Part shown: in pieces, positions 56,744-64,000 of the stretch
How the letters are laid out: each line of letters starts with the position of its first letter
Numbering within the stretch: position 1 is the stretch's first letter
NCBI RefSeq assembly: GCF_029909975.1
Contig: NZ_CP094516.1
Span: forward strand, 744,001 to 808,000
Origin: Bradyrhizobium sp. ISRA430
GTDB taxonomy: Bacteria > Pseudomonadota > Alphaproteobacteria > Rhizobiales > Xanthobacteraceae
Reading direction: 5' to 3'
Length of the DNA stretch: 64,000 nucleotides
Translations under genes and position numbers: made by a program
The notes under the pieces: model-generated
The model's database searches: none
Told to the model about the DNA's origin: nothing
What the model saw: only the letters and a program-made list of their open reading frames with translations

Positions 56744-58036
56744 ATGACCGAGCAGCGGGCAGGGGGCTATCGGATTCTGCATGAGGCGGCCTTGCGGGAT
56801 TATCTCGCAGGCCTGCCGGACCTGGCCGCGGCCCTCGGCGGCCAGCCGGCTTCCTGGTCGATTCTTGAGGTCGGCGACGGCAATCTTAACCTCGTCTTCA
56901 TCGTGAAGGGCACGCGCGGCGGCATCGCCGTGAAGCAGGCGCTGCCTTACGTCCGCCTCGTCGGCGAGAGCTGGCCGCTGCCGCTGTCGCGGGCCCATTA
57001 CGAATATCTGGCGCTGTCGCGGCAGGCCCAGCTCGCACCAGGCCTCGTGCCGGCATTGCTGCATCACAACGAGGCGCTGGCGCTGACGGTGATGGAGCTG
57101 TTGGAGCCCCACATCATCATGCGCAAGGGGCTGGTCGTGGCAACGCAATATCTACGCTTCGCCAGTGACATCACCACCTTCATGGCGCGGACGCTGTTCT
57201 TCAGCTCCGACCTCGCGCTCCCGGCCGCGGACAAGAAGGAGGGCATCGCCGCCTTCGCCGGCAATCACGCGCTGTGCAAGATCACTGAGGACTTGATCTT
57301 CACCGATCCCTATCGCGTCGCCGAGCAGAACCGCTGGACCACGCCTTACCTTGATTCCACGGCGGCGAGCCTGCGCGAGGACATGGACCTGCATGTCGCG
57401 ATCTCGCGGCTGAAGCTGAAGTTCATGGCGAGCCCGGAGGCGCTGATCCATGGCGACCTCCACACCGGCTCGATCATGGTGACGGACCGCGAGACGCGGG
57501 TGATCGATCCCGAATTCGCGTTCTACGGTCCGATGGGGTTCGACGTCGGCGCCGTGCTCGCCAATCTGCTGATGGCCTATTTCGCTTCCGCCGGCCACGA
57601 GCGTACGCCGGGTGAACGGCGCGCCTTCGAGGGCTGGATACTCGAGACGGTTGAGCAGGTCTGGAGTGAGTTCGCGCGCAAATTCCTCGACCTGTGGCGG
57701 ACCGAGGCCGCTGGCGATGCCTATCCCGCTTCGCTCTTTGCCGGCGAAAGGGGCGCCGCGTGCCTGGAGATCGAGCGGCAAGCCTACATGCAGCGTCTTT
57801 TCGCCGACACGGTCGGCTTTGCCGCCGCAAAGACCATCCGCCGCATCTTCGGCCTCGCCCATAACATCGATTTCGAGCTGATCGAGGATCCACGCAAGCG
57901 GGCGATCAGCGAAGCCCGAGCCGTGCGCCTCGCGCGGGCGATGATGGTGGAAACAGGATCATTTCCGACGATCGCGGACATCACCGGCGCAGCGCGAAAA
58001 CTGCGCGACTGGCAGCCGGAATTCGCGAACGGCTAG
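56744..58036 (+). CDS. mtnK: S-methyl-5-thioribose kinase
   Basis: The 430-residue choline/aminoglycoside-kinase-like protein has ATP-site region GDGNLNLVFIVKG, catalytic loop ALIHGDLHTGSIMVT and metal-binding RVIDPEFAFYGPMGFDVG. It phosphorylates methylthioribose in methionine salvage. The partner isomerase gene mtnA, often adjacent, is not in this window on either side. Confidence 0.92.
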   Translation: MTEQRAGGYRILHEAALRDYLAGLPDLAAALGGQPASWSILEVGDGNLNLVFIVKGTRGGIAVKQALPYVRLVGESWPLPLSRAHYEYLALSRQAQLAPGLVPALLHHNEALALTVMELLEPHIIMRKGLVVATQYLRFASDITTFMARTLFFSSDLALPAADKKEGIAAFAGNHALCKITEDLIFTDPYRVAEQNRWTTPYLDSTAASLREDMDLHVAISRLKLKFMASPEALIHGDLHTGSIMVTDRETRVIDPEFAFYGPMGFDVGAVLANLLMAYFASAGHERTPGERRAFEGWILETVEQVWSEFARKFLDLWRTEAAGDAYPASLFAGERGAACLEIERQAYMQRLFADTVGFAAAKTIRRIFGLAHNIDFELIEDPRKRAISEARAVRLARAMMVETGSFPTIADITGAARKLRDWQPEFANG

Positions 58037-58292
58037 GCCGTGTACTCGTAAATCGGCGGCTTGGCTCAGGCACGTCTGGTGCGCGCGGGCACCATCGGGG
58101 GTGTCGAACCCTGCTATGCGATTCGAATTGTGCGGCGCTGCATTCGGCTAATTTTGTGAACCACATCACACGTCCGACCGGCGATCGAATGTAACCTTCT
58201 GCCGAAGGGCACAGGCTGAATTCGATCGACAACGCTAGCGCACGGGGTGCATCAACGGCAGCCTCGGCGGTCCGTCCATGATGGAGAGTGGC
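58037..58292. other. Intergenic region before the peroxidase operon
   Basis: About 256 bases without a supported gene. It contains the Crp-type palindrome (58155-58170) and the likely promoter of the peroxidase operon. Confidence 0.6.
58155..58170. promoter_or_regulatory. Perfect Crp-type operator TGTGA-N6-TCACA
   Basis: TGTGA ACCACA TCACA matches both consensus half-sites of Crp-family regulators without a mismatch. It is distinct from the Fnr/FixK box (TTGAT-N4-ATCAA). It lies about 120-135 bases upstream of the catalase-like gene start. Regulation by a cAMP receptor is inferred. Confidence 0.6.
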
Positions 58293-59324
58293 ATGGTCGA
58301 TGATGCATCAGTAGCAAAGCAACTCGTCGAAGCCATCATTGCCAATTTGCCGGCTCCCGTCCCCGGGAGGAGGCCGGTTCACACGATCGGTGTGGGCGTG
58401 AGGGGCAAATTCGTGGCGTCGGATGCGGCGCGCACCTATTGCATCGCAGAGCACTTCAACGGACAGCCCGTCGACGTGTCGGTGAGATTCTCCAACGGAT
58501 TGGGAGGGCCGGAGCAGCATGATGGGTGGTCCGATGTTCGGGGAATGGCGACCCGCTTCCATCTTTCGGACGGAACGGGAAGCGATCTGATCGCCACGAC
58601 GCTCGGCGAATTCTTTGTCCGCAACGTCGAGGACTTTTTCGAGTTCGCCAAGGTCGCGAAGCTCGAGACGTATCGAAGACGACGCTGGTGGCTGAAGCTT
58701 TGGGACATCCTGCAGCTCAAGGTGCCTCCTCGCAACCCTTACCCGAACGAAACCAGGAGTGTCGATGCGGGAGCACTCCGTTACGCCAATCGGCACCGGT
58801 TCGCTCAGTTGGGAGTATTCCAGATCGGTCTGATCGGCGCACCGGTGAGCTATGCCCGCGCGAGCTATCATGCCGTCCACACCTTCATGGTGACGGCCCC
58901 CGATGGAGTTCGCCGCCCGGTTCGCTTTTCCTGGCAGCCGGTCGCAGGCGTTCGCAACACAGATCCCACGGCCGTGCCGCGCGACAAATATCTGTTCGAG
59001 GAGCTCAAGAAACGCCTGCAGCGATGGCCGGCCCGATTCCTGCTGATGATGACGATCGGCGAAGCGGGCGATGCGCTCGACGATCCCACAAAGCCCTGGC
59101 CGGGGACGCGAATCCGGGTGGTCATGGGTACCCTTACGCTCACCGAGGTCCCCGCGGATCAGGAAGCGGCAGGCGAACGCATCAGTTTCAATCCCTGCCG
59201 TCTCGCGCCCGGCATCGAAGTCTCCGGGGATCCCATCCTCGAGGCCCGCCTGGGCGCCTATGAAGTCTCGCGTAAAATGCGCGGCGGGTGTCCCTTCAGG
59301 TGGAGATCGGACGATGCCCAGTGA
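58293..59324 (+). CDS. Catalase-related heme peroxidase (SrpA-like)
   Basis: The 343-residue protein belongs to the small catalase-like peroxidases. Distal His in GRRPVHTIGVGVRGKF (His30 with this start), core VDVSVRFSNGLGGPEQHDGW, and proximal Tyr in EARLGAYEVSRKMR (RxxxY, about Arg319/Tyr323). It is shorter than monofunctional catalases, which often means peroxidase rather than catalase activity. The ATG at 58293 is preceded by GGAGAG; an ATG at 58278 would add five residues. It overlaps the next gene by 11 bases. Confidence 0.83.
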   Translation: MVDDASVAKQLVEAIIANLPAPVPGRRPVHTIGVGVRGKFVASDAARTYCIAEHFNGQPVDVSVRFSNGLGGPEQHDGWSDVRGMATRFHLSDGTGSDLIATTLGEFFVRNVEDFFEFAKVAKLETYRRRRWWLKLWDILQLKVPPRNPYPNETRSVDAGALRYANRHRFAQLGVFQIGLIGAPVSYARASYHAVHTFMVTAPDGVRRPVRFSWQPVAGVRNTDPTAVPRDKYLFEELKKRLQRWPARFLLMMTIGEAGDALDDPTKPWPGTRIRVVMGTLTLTEVPADQEAAGERISFNPCRLAPGIEVSGDPILEARLGAYEVSRKMRGGCPFRWRSDDAQ

Positions 59325-60033
59325 CGAAGGTTTGCTCGATCGTTTTGTGGACTGGTTGCCCACGACCCTCGTGTTCAAGCGCATGGCGTCATGGACCCTG
59401 GTGCCTTTCTGGGCGCGACGGACACCGGTGAAGCCTTTGCCCGGTGGTCCCCACCCGTCGTTCCAGTCCGGTGACGGTGTTCAGTGCATGATGAATCTGA
59501 TCATGCCGCTCAAGATCAAGTCGCCGATCGGACGAGCGGAAGCCGCGCTGGCGATCGCGCAAAACAAGGATGCGATATATGCCGGATTGAACAATGTCGG
59601 CACGGTGCACTTCGCGCGCTTCGTCATCGTCGGCGATAATATTTGCATGTTCTCCGTCTATGACGGGGATTTCACCAACTACATTCGTGACTTTATCGCC
59701 ACGATCGGCAGCGTGTTCAACGCCGTGGTCGAGCTCGTCGAAGGCGGGGAGGAGGTGCTCCCTTGCGAGGAGAATGTCGAGGCATTCATCCAATGGGTGC
59801 ATGAGCGCGACCTGTACCAGGTGCCGGACACCGCCACCGATTTCCTGAGAGACCAGGAAGCCTTGAATGGAGACAGGGCCGTATCACCCGTCCAAGACGA
59901 TCTGACCCTGCTTCCGCGCAAACTGGTGCTGCAGCTTCGCGCCAATGCGAACGTTTCGCTCGGCAGCGGCTACCGGGCCTATCCCGGGTTTTCGGTGGCT
60001 CAGGTCCGCAAACAACTGGGGCTAGGCTGGTGA
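59314..60033 (+). CDS. Unknown protein linking the two peroxidase genes
   Basis: The 239-residue protein is cytoplasmic by appearance (no signal). A conserved-looking core, NVGTVHFARFVIVGDNICMF (about 94-113) followed by SVYDGDFTNYIRDFIATIGS (114-133), resembles the beta-alpha units of dimeric alpha/beta-barrel heme and oxidoreductase proteins related to DyP, but family membership is not proven. It overlaps the catalase-like gene by 11 bases and the DyP start by four, so it is tightly coupled to both. It may be a partner, chaperone or a third oxidative enzyme. Confidence 0.75.
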   Translation: MPSDEGLLDRFVDWLPTTLVFKRMASWTLVPFWARRTPVKPLPGGPHPSFQSGDGVQCMMNLIMPLKIKSPIGRAEAALAIAQNKDAIYAGLNNVGTVHFARFVIVGDNICMFSVYDGDFTNYIRDFIATIGSVFNAVVELVEGGEEVLPCEENVEAFIQWVHERDLYQVPDTATDFLRDQEALNGDRAVSPVQDDLTLLPRKLVLQLRANANVSLGSGYRAYPGFSVAQVRKQLGLGW

Positions 60034-61451
60034 GTACTATGTTCGACCTCGCTGATCTGCAGGGCAACATCTTGCGTGGCTACACCAAGAAGCCGTGCGT
60101 GCGTTACCTCATTCTTGAAGTCGCCGATCGCATCGCGGCCCGGCGCTGGCTCGCCGCCTCCATATCCGGCCGTGATCACGGCGTTCCGCAGATCACGACC
60201 GGGAATTGGGGGGCAAACAAGCCGGAAACCTGTTTCAACATTGGCCTGACCTACGAGGGACTGCGTGCCCTCGGTACGCCGAGTTCTTCGCTTGAAATGT
60301 TCCCCAACGAATTCATAGAGGGCATGACCGCCCGCGCCTTGAAGCTCGGGGATATCGGGCCGAGCGCGCCGGAAACCTGGCCATCGCCCTTCGATGAGCC
60401 CAGCCGGATCCATCTCATCGCAACGATCTACGCGGACGATGTCAGGCAACTGGACCAAGTCCAGCAGCACGCGCTCGACCGAAACGCCCTGACGCTGCTC
60501 GGTACACGCGAGGGCCGCAATTTCCGAGACGACTACGTTCACTTCGGTTATCGCGACAACATCATGCAACCGAGGTTCGAGAGGGTTCACGACCGGCAGC
60601 GCCATGCCGACGGACAACCCAGGGCGCCGCTCGGCACCGTGTTGCTGGGACATCCGACCAACCTGGAAGGTTTGATGTGGCGGGTTCCTCAACCCGCGGC
60701 GTTGGGACACAACGGCACGTTCAACGCCTTTCGCGTGCTGAAGCAGGACGTGGTGGGCTTCGAGGCGTATCTCGATCAGGCCGCATCCGAGTTGCTCGAG
60801 CACCCGCAAGTCGACGAGTTGCTGCCGCCCGGCGCTGAAACGAAAATTGCCCAGGTCATGTCAGTCGCAGGCCGTCATGGTGCCTTGCGCGAGATCGTCG
60901 CCGCCAACCTCTGCGGCCGATGGCGCGATGGCACGCCGCTGGCGCTGTCGCCAGACGCACCTGATCCCAGCGTGAGTCAGTCGAATTTTGACTATGACGG
61001 TGAGTCCCGCTGCCCCTATGGCGCCCATATCCGCCGGTGCAATCCGCGGGGCGGGCAGATCGTGCAGCGCGTAGCGAACAACAGTCGGCGCCTTGTGCGG
61101 CGTGGCATGCCCTATGGACCAGCCTATGATCCGGCGAAGCGTGATCGGGACAAGCCCGAGCCGGAACGGGGCCTGCTCGGAAACTTCATAGGAGCCAGCC
61201 TCGGCGCCCAGTTCGAGGCCATGTCCTGCGACTGGCTGAACCTTGGCCTGCAGGATCCGCGCATCACCGGCTCCAACGATCCGATCGTAGGCGCCAACGA
61301 TCCCAAGACGAGCTGGTTCGACTTGCCGCTCAAATCCGGCCGCGCGATCCGGCTGCGGGGATTGCCCCGATTGGTCTGGACGCGGGGCGGCGCCTATACA
61401 TTCCTGCCGAGCCTCTCGGCGATCCGTTATCTGGGATCGCTGACGACGTGA
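60030..61451 (+). CDS. DyP-type heme peroxidase
   Basis: The 473-residue protein has the DyP start DLADLQGNILRGYTK, the region HFGYRDNIMQPRF (173-177 reads GYRDN instead of the signature GxxDG; Asp176 kept), the proximal heme His333 in CPYGAHIRRCNPR and distal Arg in LVRRGMPYGPAYD. There is no signal peptide, so it is cytoplasmic or uses a partner for encapsulation. GTG start at 60030 overlaps the preceding stop; an ATG at 60039 is an alternative. It reduces H2O2 with dyes or aromatic donors in known members; its true donor is unknown. Confidence 0.86.
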   Translation: MSTMFDLADLQGNILRGYTKKPCVRYLILEVADRIAARRWLAASISGRDHGVPQITTGNWGANKPETCFNIGLTYEGLRALGTPSSSLEMFPNEFIEGMTARALKLGDIGPSAPETWPSPFDEPSRIHLIATIYADDVRQLDQVQQHALDRNALTLLGTREGRNFRDDYVHFGYRDNIMQPRFERVHDRQRHADGQPRAPLGTVLLGHPTNLEGLMWRVPQPAALGHNGTFNAFRVLKQDVVGFEAYLDQAASELLEHPQVDELLPPGAETKIAQVMSVAGRHGALREIVAANLCGRWRDGTPLALSPDAPDPSVSQSNFDYDGESRCPYGAHIRRCNPRGGQIVQRVANNSRRLVRRGMPYGPAYDPAKRDRDKPEPERGLLGNFIGASLGAQFEAMSCDWLNLGLQDPRITGSNDPIVGANDPKTSWFDLPLKSGRAIRLRGLPRLVWTRGGAYTFLPSLSAIRYLGSLTT

Positions 61452-61505
61452 CTCCAACGTCCGTTCACTCCCGAGGCGCGGACATGTCTGGTCGACCTTG
61501 ATTCA

Positions 61506-64000
61506 CTAGTTCAACACTTTCACCAGGTCATCAGCCTCGCGCAGATCGCGGGACGTTTCCGCAGATGCAAATTTCGCCCGGGTCGATATCAGCAGCTCTC
61601 GTGCTTCGGCGCGTCCGGATGCGCTCTCGCCGGCGCTGACCAGGCGCCCGATGCTGATCGCCGTGCGCAATTCCCAACCGACCGCCCCAAGCTTCCTGGC
61701 AGAGGTAAGCGAACGCTTGAACAAGCGCATGGCAGCGCGGTCGTCTCGCAATGGTTCGCAACACAATAGCGAGCCGTGAATCCGATAAATCTCGGGAGCT
61801 GCCCAGCGCTCGCCGGTTTTCTTCATCAGCGCCTCAGCCGAAGCAGCGAAGCTTCGAGCCCTTTCCATCTGCCCGATCCGTCCGAATTCTGTGGCGAGCA
61901 GAGTTCGATAGAGTGGAATCTGAATGCACCGAGTCTCGGCAGGTAGCCTGCCGAGCAAGCCGCATAATTGTTCGAGCACTTCCGGCGCGGGGCCTCGTGC
62001 CGCCAACGCAGCGGTTGCCCACAATGGGCCGATGACCCGGTACATCGGATAGCCGTACTCGTCAGCGACCTTCAGGCCGCGCTTTACGCTGGCAAGGTTG
62101 GCCGCAAGATCGCCCTCATACCAGTGATCGGCGACGCCAAGAATGGAGGCAAAAGCTTGCATGAACGGATGCCCGATCTCGTTCGCGAGCTGACGCGCCG
62201 TCACACAGCACTCCCTGGCTCGCCCCGGGCGGCCCAGCAACCATTCGATGTGTCCGGAATAGACAAGCGATACGATCAATGGATCATGCTGATAAATCTG
62301 GACCAGCTTGCCATGCTCACGCGGATTGTAGCGAGCGCTGACCAGAGCCGCGAGCTCGCTCGCCTGCTCCAAACGACCGAGAAAGAAATTGGCGATTACG
62401 GCAGCGGTGTAGGCCATGAGGGCGGCCTCGTCATCGCGCCACGCTTCTGCCCGCCGGACGAAATCCTGCGCGTGTTCGAGGCCCTTGGTGAGCTCGCAGT
62501 TGACCAGCTTGGCTATAGTACTTCCCCACAGCACCGTCGCCTTCTCGCGAATGGTGCCATGGCTCGCGCAAAGCTTGAGTGCACGACTGTAGGGGCCATA
62601 GACGTTCGGATCGGACCATCCGGCATTGGCCGTGTACGCCATCGCCAAATTGGATTGCAGTGCGATTTCGGCCTCGAAGCGCCGTGGTGACGCCGGCATC
62701 TTGGGTATCAGCGAGAGGCCTTCGCGAAGATGAGCCACGGCTTCCTTGGTGGCAGAGCTGCGGAGCGCGGATTTGCCCGCCTGAAGCCAAGCCTCGATCG
62801 CTTCCGGAATGTTGCCTGCGCGTGCATAGTGATAGCCCAACACCGCCGGCTGGCTGCTTTCTCCAATGCCGGCTTCCTGGAGCAGCCACGATGCGACGCG
62901 CGCATGGAGCTCACGCCTTTCCTCCTTGAGCAACGAGGAGTAGGCGACTTCCTGTATCATCGCGTGCTTGAACGTGAAGACCGTGCCTTGAGACTCCTCG
63001 CTACGATACACAATCCCGGCTCTCTCGAGCGCCCGCAACGAGTGTTTCAGCGTTTCGTCTTGACCTGGAAGCACGCTGAAAATGCCGTCATAGTTGAAGC
63101 GCCTTCCGAAAACTGAGGCGATCTGGGCGACGCGCTTGGCAGGTCCGAGGCGATCAAGGCGCTCCATCAGTGAATCGTGAATGCTTGCCGGCACCAGAGG
63201 TTCCGGCAACCTCCCGCTCGGCACAGGGCTCTCAGCGGCCAGCGGGACCGCGCCGGAATCGACGACGGCCCGCGTAAACTCCTCGACGAAGAGTGGCACG
63301 CCGTCGGTTCTTTCCACGATCTGGCTGGTAATCCGGCGCGGTACGAGATCGCTGCCCGCCACGGCTGCGACCATCTGCTCGCATTCATGCGCCGCCAGCT
63401 TTTGCAGAGAAATCCGTCGAATTGCCGGGCCTGACAACCAGTCGGCGCTGTAATCATCGCGATGCGTGATCAGGACCATGATCCGCTCGCCAGGACATTG
63501 AGCTATCACGCGCACCATCAGTTCGATGGTGGTCGGGTCCATCCACTGGACGTCCTCGACGATTCCGAGGACCGGCCGCTTGCGCGAGGCCGCGACCAGA
63601 GCATCGATGAACACCTGCAAGGCACGCTCGCGCTCCGAGGGAGATCCGAGATCCGCGGGTTCGTATCCCGAGCATGCGGGTATCGACAGCACCGCTCCGT
63701 AGTAACGAAGCGCCTGCTCGACATCGGTCACGGCTCTTGCCAAGAGCGAACGCAACTTTGCCAATGCGAGTTGCGCGTCGTCGGTGTCCTGGATGCCGGT
63801 CGCACGTGTGAGCCGCTCGATTTCCGGGGCAAGCGGCGTGTTGACGTGGAATGGTGAGCATTGCAGCGACAGAACATCGCGCGGAGATGCATCAAGTGAA
63901 CTGCGAAACTGGCGGATCAAACGTGATTTGCCGATGCCGGGTTCACCGGAAATCACGCCGACCTGTCCCGAGCCGGCTACGCTTTGCTGCCACATCTCGG
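61506..64000 (-). CDS. Large AAA/TPR signalling ATPase (partial, continues past the right edge)
   Basis: At least 831 residues of the C-terminal part are visible; the frame is open at base 64000. NTPase domain with Walker A GEPGIGKSRLIRQF and Walker B VLGIVEDVQWMDP, then a winged-helix-like segment, followed by about 400 residues of helical TPR-like repeats. This is the layout of the AAA-ATPase half of rhizobial proteins that begin with an adenylate/guanylate cyclase domain, or of LuxR-type MalT-like regulators. The N-terminal domain is outside the window, so neither is proven. It converges on the DyP gene with a 54-base gap. Confidence 0.85.
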   Translation of the reverse strand, partial: EMWQQSVAGSGQVGVISGEPGIGKSRLIRQFRSSLDASPRDVLSLQCSPFHVNTPLAPEIERLTRATGIQDTDDAQLALAKLRSLLARAVTDVEQALRYYGAVLSIPACSGYEPADLGSPSERERALQVFIDALVAASRKRPVLGIVEDVQWMDPTTIELMVRVIAQCPGERIMVLITHRDDYSADWLSGPAIRRISLQKLAAHECEQMVAAVAGSDLVPRRITSQIVERTDGVPLFVEEFTRAVVDSGAVPLAAESPVPSGRLPEPLVPASIHDSLMERLDRLGPAKRVAQIASVFGRRFNYDGIFSVLPGQDETLKHSLRALERAGIVYRSEESQGTVFTFKHAMIQEVAYSSLLKEERRELHARVASWLLQEAGIGESSQPAVLGYHYARAGNIPEAIEAWLQAGKSALRSSATKEAVAHLREGLSLIPKMPASPRRFEAEIALQSNLAMAYTANAGWSDPNVYGPYSRALKLCASHGTIREKATVLWGSTIAKLVNCELTKGLEHAQDFVRRAEAWRDDEAALMAYTAAVIANFFLGRLEQASELAALVSARYNPREHGKLVQIYQHDPLIVSLVYSGHIEWLLGRPGRARECCVTARQLANEIGHPFMQAFASILGVADHWYEGDLAANLASVKRGLKVADEYGYPMYRVIGPLWATAALAARGPAPEVLEQLCGLLGRLPAETRCIQIPLYRTLLATEFGRIGQMERARSFAASAEALMKKTGERWAAPEIYRIHGSLLCCEPLRDDRAAMRLFKRSLTSARKLGAVGWELRTAISIGRLVSAGESASGRAEARELLISTRAKFASAETSRDLREADDLVKVLN

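Follow-up and report, generated by a model that had tools for sequence, protein, structure and literature searches.

In the 64,000-nucleotide (nt) stretch of the Bradyrhizobium sp. ISRA430 genome that we analysed (NZ_CP094516.1, positions 744,001 to 808,000; hereafter the window, in whose own numbering features are placed), three plus-strand genes between 58293 and 61451 encode a catalase-like hemoprotein (343 amino acids; 58293–59324), a middle protein of an unnamed family (239 amino acids; 59314–60033), and a DyP-type peroxidase (473 amino acids; 60030–61451). The catalase-like gene starts with ATG at 58293 and has its stop codon at 59322–59324; further in-frame ATGs occur at 58278 and 58281, and, counted from 58293, most orthologue matches start at codon 4 or 5. 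The middle gene runs from an ATG at 59314 to a stop at 60031–60033, and the DyP gene from a GTG at 60030 to a stop that ends at 61451. According to the translated open reading frames, the catalase-like and middle genes overlap by 11 nt and the middle and DyP genes by 4 nt, as had been claimed in an earlier prediction made from the sequence alone (hereafter the original prediction). The additional claim that the three products are made together agrees with our genus and contig surveys, in which the genes form one conserved unit.

The window genome contains one match each for the middle and DyP genes, and one further, distant match for the catalase-like gene. In a genus sample of 117 genomes, any match to the middle gene was found in 21 and a strong match (73–100% identity) in 16. 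Both partner genes flank the middle gene in all 16 strong-match genomes, which excludes a chance grouping of the triad; in one of them, a draft genome (L014/L099), the catalase-like gene is broken into two frames, and the middle and DyP matches lie in single frames. A survey of a contig collection, which partly overlaps the genus sample in that certain genomes are in both, identified 29 loci, 17 labelled Bradyrhizobium and 12 labelled Acidiphilium, Betaproteobacteria, Roseiarcus, Sedimentitalea, Hellea, Sphingomonas (two), Rhodobacterales, Granulosicoccaceae, Variovorax, Actinomycetota, and Acidimicrobiia. The catalase-like gene is upstream in 29/29 of these loci and DyP is downstream in 27/29; in the two DyP-less loci (L050 and L053) the contig edge falls within the middle gene, and in one of the 27 (L052) the DyP gene runs off the contig. 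The full triad is thereby present in Alpha- and Betaproteobacteria and on one Actinomycetota contig, and of the three genes, two are seen on the sole gammaproteobacterial contig. The overlap of the middle and DyP genes has the same form, GTGA, in 28/28 testable triad loci (the window and 27 others, mostly proteobacterial and one from Actinomycetota); in the window, the last Trp codon of the middle gene together with its TGA provides the GTG start of DyP. The junction between the catalase-like and middle genes varies among loci from overlap through to a gap. Pairwise distances of the three proteins are correlated across 27 loci (r = 0.92, 0.94, and 0.87), as they are across nine non-Bradyrhizobium loci (r = 0.76–0.81).

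The middle protein has no Pfam or NCBIfam match, and searches of the PDB with the single sequence and with a profile returned nothing better than E = 0.5. Its description in the original prediction as a protein of unknown family is correct in this respect, but the protein is not an orphan: 918 relatives were retrieved at E ≤ 1e-3, and a profile of near and distant members matched at least 6055 protein clusters at the same threshold (7998 candidates scored, the best 120 listed). A Pfam domain is absent in 119 of the best 120 listed relatives. Kinship with PF14583, carried by the remaining one and matched by two distant relatives at E = 0.05–0.11, was considered and taken as chance. Family members were detected in 29/398 genomes of a phylum sample (E ≤ 0.01), in 58/117 genomes of the genus sample (E ≤ 0.001), and, with a close-family profile, in 3/385 of a class sample.

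What stays constant beside the middle gene is DyP rather than the catalase; a cytochrome P450 can stand in for the catalase-like enzyme, which can also be absent. We counted neighbours in the subset of family members whose surroundings were read (E ≤ 1e-5, repeats removed, tandem copies counted singly), which gave 93 distinct members, or 84 under an alternative rule for removing repeats. A same-strand DyP gene is located downstream within 2.6 kb of 82 of the 93 (56 of these ≤150 nt from the profile edges), eight members are part of a DyP open frame, and three show neither arrangement, two of which (L050 and L053) are cut off by the end of their contigs and one of which (L019/L091) has the order DyP-middle-catalase. 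Two weak family hits, L086 (E = 0.005) and L087 (E = 0.009), where a local scan revealed no middle or DyP match, were dropped as chance. The original prediction had named a middle gene found mostly apart from peroxidases as an outcome that would count against it; among the members examined, the gene was never observed away from a peroxidase. The strongest result of the analysis is that this association marks the middle protein as a partner dedicated to DyP. Family members are also found as tandem genes, as double domains (L017), and in fusions. At L055 (784–2664), three middle-family genes stand in tandem immediately ahead of one DyP gene.

The fusions indicate which other enzyme may belong to the system. 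Five frames of 1410–1544 amino acids (L117–L121) contain a Pfam P450, strongly hydrophobic stretches, a middle domain, and then DyP, and two others (L128 and L129) join middle and DyP domains without a Pfam P450. When the middle-DyP part of L117 was used as query, 1558 similar-sized proteins matched; 116 of the 120 listed carry a Pfam P450, mostly from Mesorhizobium and relatives, and many of those listed are named cytochrome P450 or Dyp-type peroxidase. Among 20 stretches chosen for variety (L117–L136), P450 is fused in five and encoded by a separate, Pfam-supported gene in five (L122, L123, L126, L135, and L136), a Pfam-supported catalase-like gene is present in L131, and weaker similarities to catalase-like proteins (L125, L130, and L134) or partial similarity to P450 (L127) were detected in four; no second heme enzyme was recognised in L124, L128, L129, L132, and L133. 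Monooxygenase P450s have a catalytic Thr in the I-helix. In our alignment of 124 P450 rows (115 fusions and nine from the loci), the heme Cys and the ExxR motif are present in every row, and the I-helix place of that Thr, located by alignment to CYP113A1, is occupied by Pro in 115/115 fusions. The residue ahead of this Pro is Val, Ala, Gly, Thr, Ile, or Met, with Asp/Glu in 0/115 and Arg in 0/115; the P450s of L122 and L126 have Ala at the place of the Pro. Such a Pro suggests peroxide use, as a sign rather than a proof. A subtilase-family gene (PF00082; L118:8685–11000) lies near one of the P450-middle-DyP fusions, and a relative of it, assigned by clustering, is near L117.

Both flanking proteins of the triad retain their heme residues, which bears out the original assignment of the first and third genes to heme-binding, peroxide-using families. 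The catalase-like protein matches the Pfam catalase family (PF00199, E = 6e-30), and its best solved relative is 3e4w (deposited as “Putative uncharacterized protein,” E = 6.5e-39), which we take to be the small catalase-like protein of M. avium paratuberculosis. Catalases rely on a distal His, a proximal Arg, and a Tyr heme ligand, and the corresponding His30, Arg319, and Tyr323 are present in 45/45 rows of our alignment (certain genomes appear twice in these 45 rows and in the 48 DyP rows below). The distal Asn of monofunctional catalases (the second Asn of the NN pair, presumably Asn148 of human catalase) is missing: the place aligned to it is Thr103, with Thr in 42, Ser in two, and Pro in one of the 45 rows, and the preceding place is also not Asn. 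The residue preceding the distal His is Val in 37, Ile in seven, and Ala in one. An identity as allene oxide synthase was rejected on the basis of the absence of Thr before the distal His together with the replacement of the distal Asn.

The product of gene 3 scores below the cut-offs of the curated models, with 26.1 bits vs. 27.5 for Pfam DyP_N and 55.3 bits vs. 100.5 for NCBIfam TIGR01413 (Dyp_perox_fam, E = 6e-15). Despite this, its kinship with DyP-type peroxidases is clear at the level of sequence, its best solved relatives being 8re2/8re3 (“Peroxidase, putative”; E = 1.3e-53 for 8re2). DyP enzymes use the distal Asp of a GXXDG motif, a distal Arg, and a proximal His, and Asp176, His333, Arg357, and Arg358 are found in 48/48 rows. 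The complete GXXDG motif is not retained, as its last Gly is Asn in 39 rows, Gly in six, and Ser in three.

For the middle protein itself, AlphaFold2 models (mean pLDDT 64.5 and 70.1; ten-residue means of 64–88 over residues 61–140) outline a core at residues 57–140 (59482–59733, plus strand) with the order strand-helices-strand-strand-helix, which is probably a single ferredoxin-like domain with helices ahead of it. The core includes the motifs G-T-V-H99-x-x-R102 and Y-D117-G-D-F-x-x-Y-x-x-D126-F; H99 and D117 occur in 73/73 rows of the family alignment, D126 in 72/73, and R102 in 71/73, and all four residues in 22/22 near rows. The best fold matches of the model are ABM proteins and polyketide cyclases. 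Among the 50 Foldseek matches listed there was no DyP, and HMG-CoA reductase matches had low TM-scores. An origin of the family from a duplicated DyP half is unsupported, because hhalign found no similarity between the middle family and DyP (probability 0.4 of 100 over 18 columns).

Upstream of the operon, at 58155–58170 (−138 to −123 from the catalase-like start, no strand assigned), lies a perfect CRP-type box of the form TGTGA-N6-TCACA (TGTGAACCACATCACA), the single perfect match in the window vs. 0.04 expected; the whole window genome has 16 perfect sites vs. one for a reversed-pattern control. A perfect box begins 126–138 nt before gene 1 in 15/15 Bradyrhizobium triads without an upstream cyclase (the window and 14 others). 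Among these 15 loci, three of the six central bases of the box are highly variable, and its flanks have a mean column identity of ~0.80 in the 15-row alignment, so that the box stands out, yet the whole region is conserved. The remaining 15 of the 30 triad loci, among them all 12 from outside Bradyrhizobium, have no site at ≤2 mismatches, their best site showing three to five. The 49 loci L026–L054 and L117–L136 (496,731 bases) contain 24 perfect boxes, of which 14 precede gene 1, five are shortly upstream of the unit (L117, L118, L126, L132, and L134), and five are elsewhere. That the box is read by CRP in Bradyrhizobium is our assumption. Downstream of the box, the region from −110 to −96 has several invariant columns in the 15-row alignment and includes GATCGAATGTAAC (58183–58195, plus strand), which is possibly the −10 region of a class II CRP promoter; a sigma-70 consensus scan gave no match at GATCGAATGTAAC. 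Promoter and terminator consensus scans matched at chance level, and Rfam had no match in 57500–64000. Another perfect CRP-type box is found at G000:C1:3578786–3578801, ~140 nt upstream of a minus-strand cyclase-domain match.

The original prediction stopped at the three genes and missed this box as well as the neighbouring gene on the minus strand, which is convergent to DyP and is cut by the window end, leaving its C-terminal ~830 codons (61506–64000) inside. The whole gene (L137:4507–7728) encodes 1073 amino acids with a cyclase domain (PF00211, E = 3.5e-19), an AAA domain (AAA_16, E = 6.4e-19), and TPR_2 below its cut-off. The metal-binding Asp residues of class III nucleotide cyclases lie in two motifs, which here read IDIVGS and GDG, both of the metal-binding form, as expected for class III. 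A homologue is convergent to DyP in 16 of the 29 triad loci, with L035 and L047 partial (L047 shows only the TPR part). The other 13 loci include six with a related cyclase-AAA gene directly upstream, two with a TIR-TPR gene, one with a TPR gene, three (L032–L034) with no such neighbour in the flanks read, and L052, whose flank is too short. Over the 29 loci, the cyclase domain was read from homology to L042/L043 and the motifs in L044 and L050, where Pfam does not list it, and from homology alone in L040. The two TIR-TPR genes (L048:6098–8440 and L054:7199–9181) stand next to the triads of the two Sphingomonas-labelled loci, where the cyclase would otherwise be. Because 37 cyclase-domain matches and 11 long homologues of the neighbour protein (itself included) occur in the 8.56-Mb window genome, a chance adjacency within 5 kb has a probability of ~2–6%; the non-Bradyrhizobium lineages are the stronger evidence, since the Bradyrhizobium loci amount to few independent events. 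Cyclase-TPR or TPR proteins likewise lie beside the P450 fusions (L117–L119; L120 and L121) and separate P450-middle-DyP sets (L122 and L126), and CRP-family or cNMP-binding genes are near L043, L117, and L122, and, by clustering only, near L118.

The reading we favour, with a probability of about 0.48, has the middle protein serve as a dedicated partner of DyP, tying this peroxidase to a second heme enzyme that also uses peroxide, for consecutive oxidations under CRP-type control. Its observed basis is the gene order, the DyP association, the overlap, the fusions, the conserved residues, and the conservation of the box and the neighbour. Made in step with DyP through the fixed GTGA stop/start overlap, the middle protein would dock on DyP and link it to the second enzyme, which is catalase-like here and elsewhere mostly a P450 that lacks the oxygen-activating residue pair and may itself use peroxide. 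Of the mechanisms at hand, bridging DyP to a second heme enzyme is the best candidate because the operon order equals the order of the P450-middle-DyP fusions. The bridge that the original prediction had offered as one option is strengthened by these natural fusions, and bridging itself stays putative. Rather than clearing H2O2 in bulk, the two heme enzymes would probably act one after the other, with peroxide, in oxidising a single organic and perhaps lipid-like substrate. In Bradyrhizobium, a CRP-family factor at the upstream box probably switches transcription on, with the cyclase-AAA-TPR protein as the likely source of its cyclic nucleotide. One P450 weighs against the suggested peroxide use by the fusion P450s: the separate P450 gene just upstream of the L056 middle-DyP fusion (L056:2640–3161, minus strand; Pfam E = 3e-10) reads GAIDTT by eye, i.e., the ordinary pair. 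A broader and considerably more speculative version, which we hold as doubtful, is that of a widespread, undescribed bacterial two-heme oxidation machine, in which the ferredoxin-like family joins DyP to an interchangeable peroxide-using enzyme, either catalase-like or a peroxygenase-like P450. Its product would be an oxidised signal or defence molecule, its expression would go through CRP, and a neighbouring cyclase-AAA-TPR or TIR-TPR sensor would feed it, as a bacterial counterpart of oxylipin pathways.

Catalase and DyP families both use peroxides, and the genes might simply be an oxidative-stress operon in which the two enzymes remove peroxides on their own beside a non-bridging accessory protein. 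The retained heme residues and the middle-DyP pairs without a recognised second enzyme (L132 and L133) would fit; the replacement of the catalase distal Asn by Thr in 42/45 rows, the P450 that takes the catalase-like place elsewhere, even within one chain, and the apparently CRP-type control in Bradyrhizobium make this unlikely. Two alternatives concern the middle protein alone. It could be a heme handler like other ferredoxin-like heme proteins (IsdG/HemQ type) that binds heme and loads DyP, which we regard as improbable: the His is lost in certain wider members (T-I-L-S-A-R-W in L075, L112, and L113), many ABM proteins match the fold just as well, and up to three tandem copies (L055) would be unexpected for a loader. 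Alternatively, it could be an ABM-type enzyme, a cofactor-less oxygenase or cyclase responsible for producing or completing the substrate of the two heme enzymes, as suggested by the ABM and polyketide cyclase fold matches and by H99, R102, D117, and D126 (22/22 near and 71–73/73 deeper rows); given the tie to DyP in every place examined and a partial neighbour scan in which no polyketide gene was noticed, there is little to recommend it. The least probable of the alternatives is a conflict or defence module whose cyclase-AAA or TIR-TPR sensors trigger an oxidative response. The sensor-like neighbours and the patchy spread (16/117 genus genomes) agree with such a module, but PADLOC matches none of the three genes and reaches the cyclase and TIR neighbours only via generic domains (PycC models match the neighbour cyclase within its cyclase domain), and the CRP box suggests ordinary metabolic control. 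We consider coupled oxidation by DyP and a second heme enzyme to account better for these observations.

A search of the open-access literature found no description of a system with this three-gene set, in line with the original prediction, which could point to no described complex of this make-up. The encapsulin cargo DyPs and EfeUOB are cases in which a DyP works with partners encoded alongside (PMC8197335); here the co-encoded partner is small, probably ferredoxin-like, and of an unnamed family, and is joined by a second heme enzyme. Neither “P450” nor “fusion” appears in the text of that review. Catalase-related allene oxide synthases and hydroperoxide lyases are fused to lipoxygenase, and in that chemistry a P450 or a catalase fold can fill the same role (PMC5617202). 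They resemble our system in coupling a catalase-fold hemoprotein to a second oxidation enzyme. However, the partner here is DyP rather than lipoxygenase, and gene 1 has Val at the place of Thr66, which precedes the distal His in cAOS, and Thr at the place of its distal Asn137 (PMC5617202). The nearest solved relative of gene 1, 3e4w/3e4y, is likewise without the distal Asn in our alignment. CYP152 P450 peroxygenases have Arg-Pro in place of the acid-alcohol pair (PMC5818669); the P450s of the sister fusions share the Pro in place of the catalytic Thr but are without the preceding Arg, and their chains also carry middle and DyP domains. Fungal dioxygenase-P450 fusions combine two enzyme domains for consecutive steps in one chain (PMC11719350), as the P450 fusions might, although with a dioxygenase instead of DyP.

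A partner family of thousands that is tied to DyP by overlap, order, and fusion offers a direct handle on the role of many DyPs, and we know of no natural substrate for most DyP peroxidases. The exchange of the catalase-like enzyme for a P450, mostly peroxygenase-looking, in the same place hints at a shared peroxide chemistry, and the CRP box and the cyclase neighbour name conditions in which to seek it. On the other side of the operon, the next gene upstream (56744–58036, same direction) encodes an S-methyl-5-thioribose kinase (TIGR01767, 500 bits); it ends ~250 nt ahead of the operon, with the CRP box in between.

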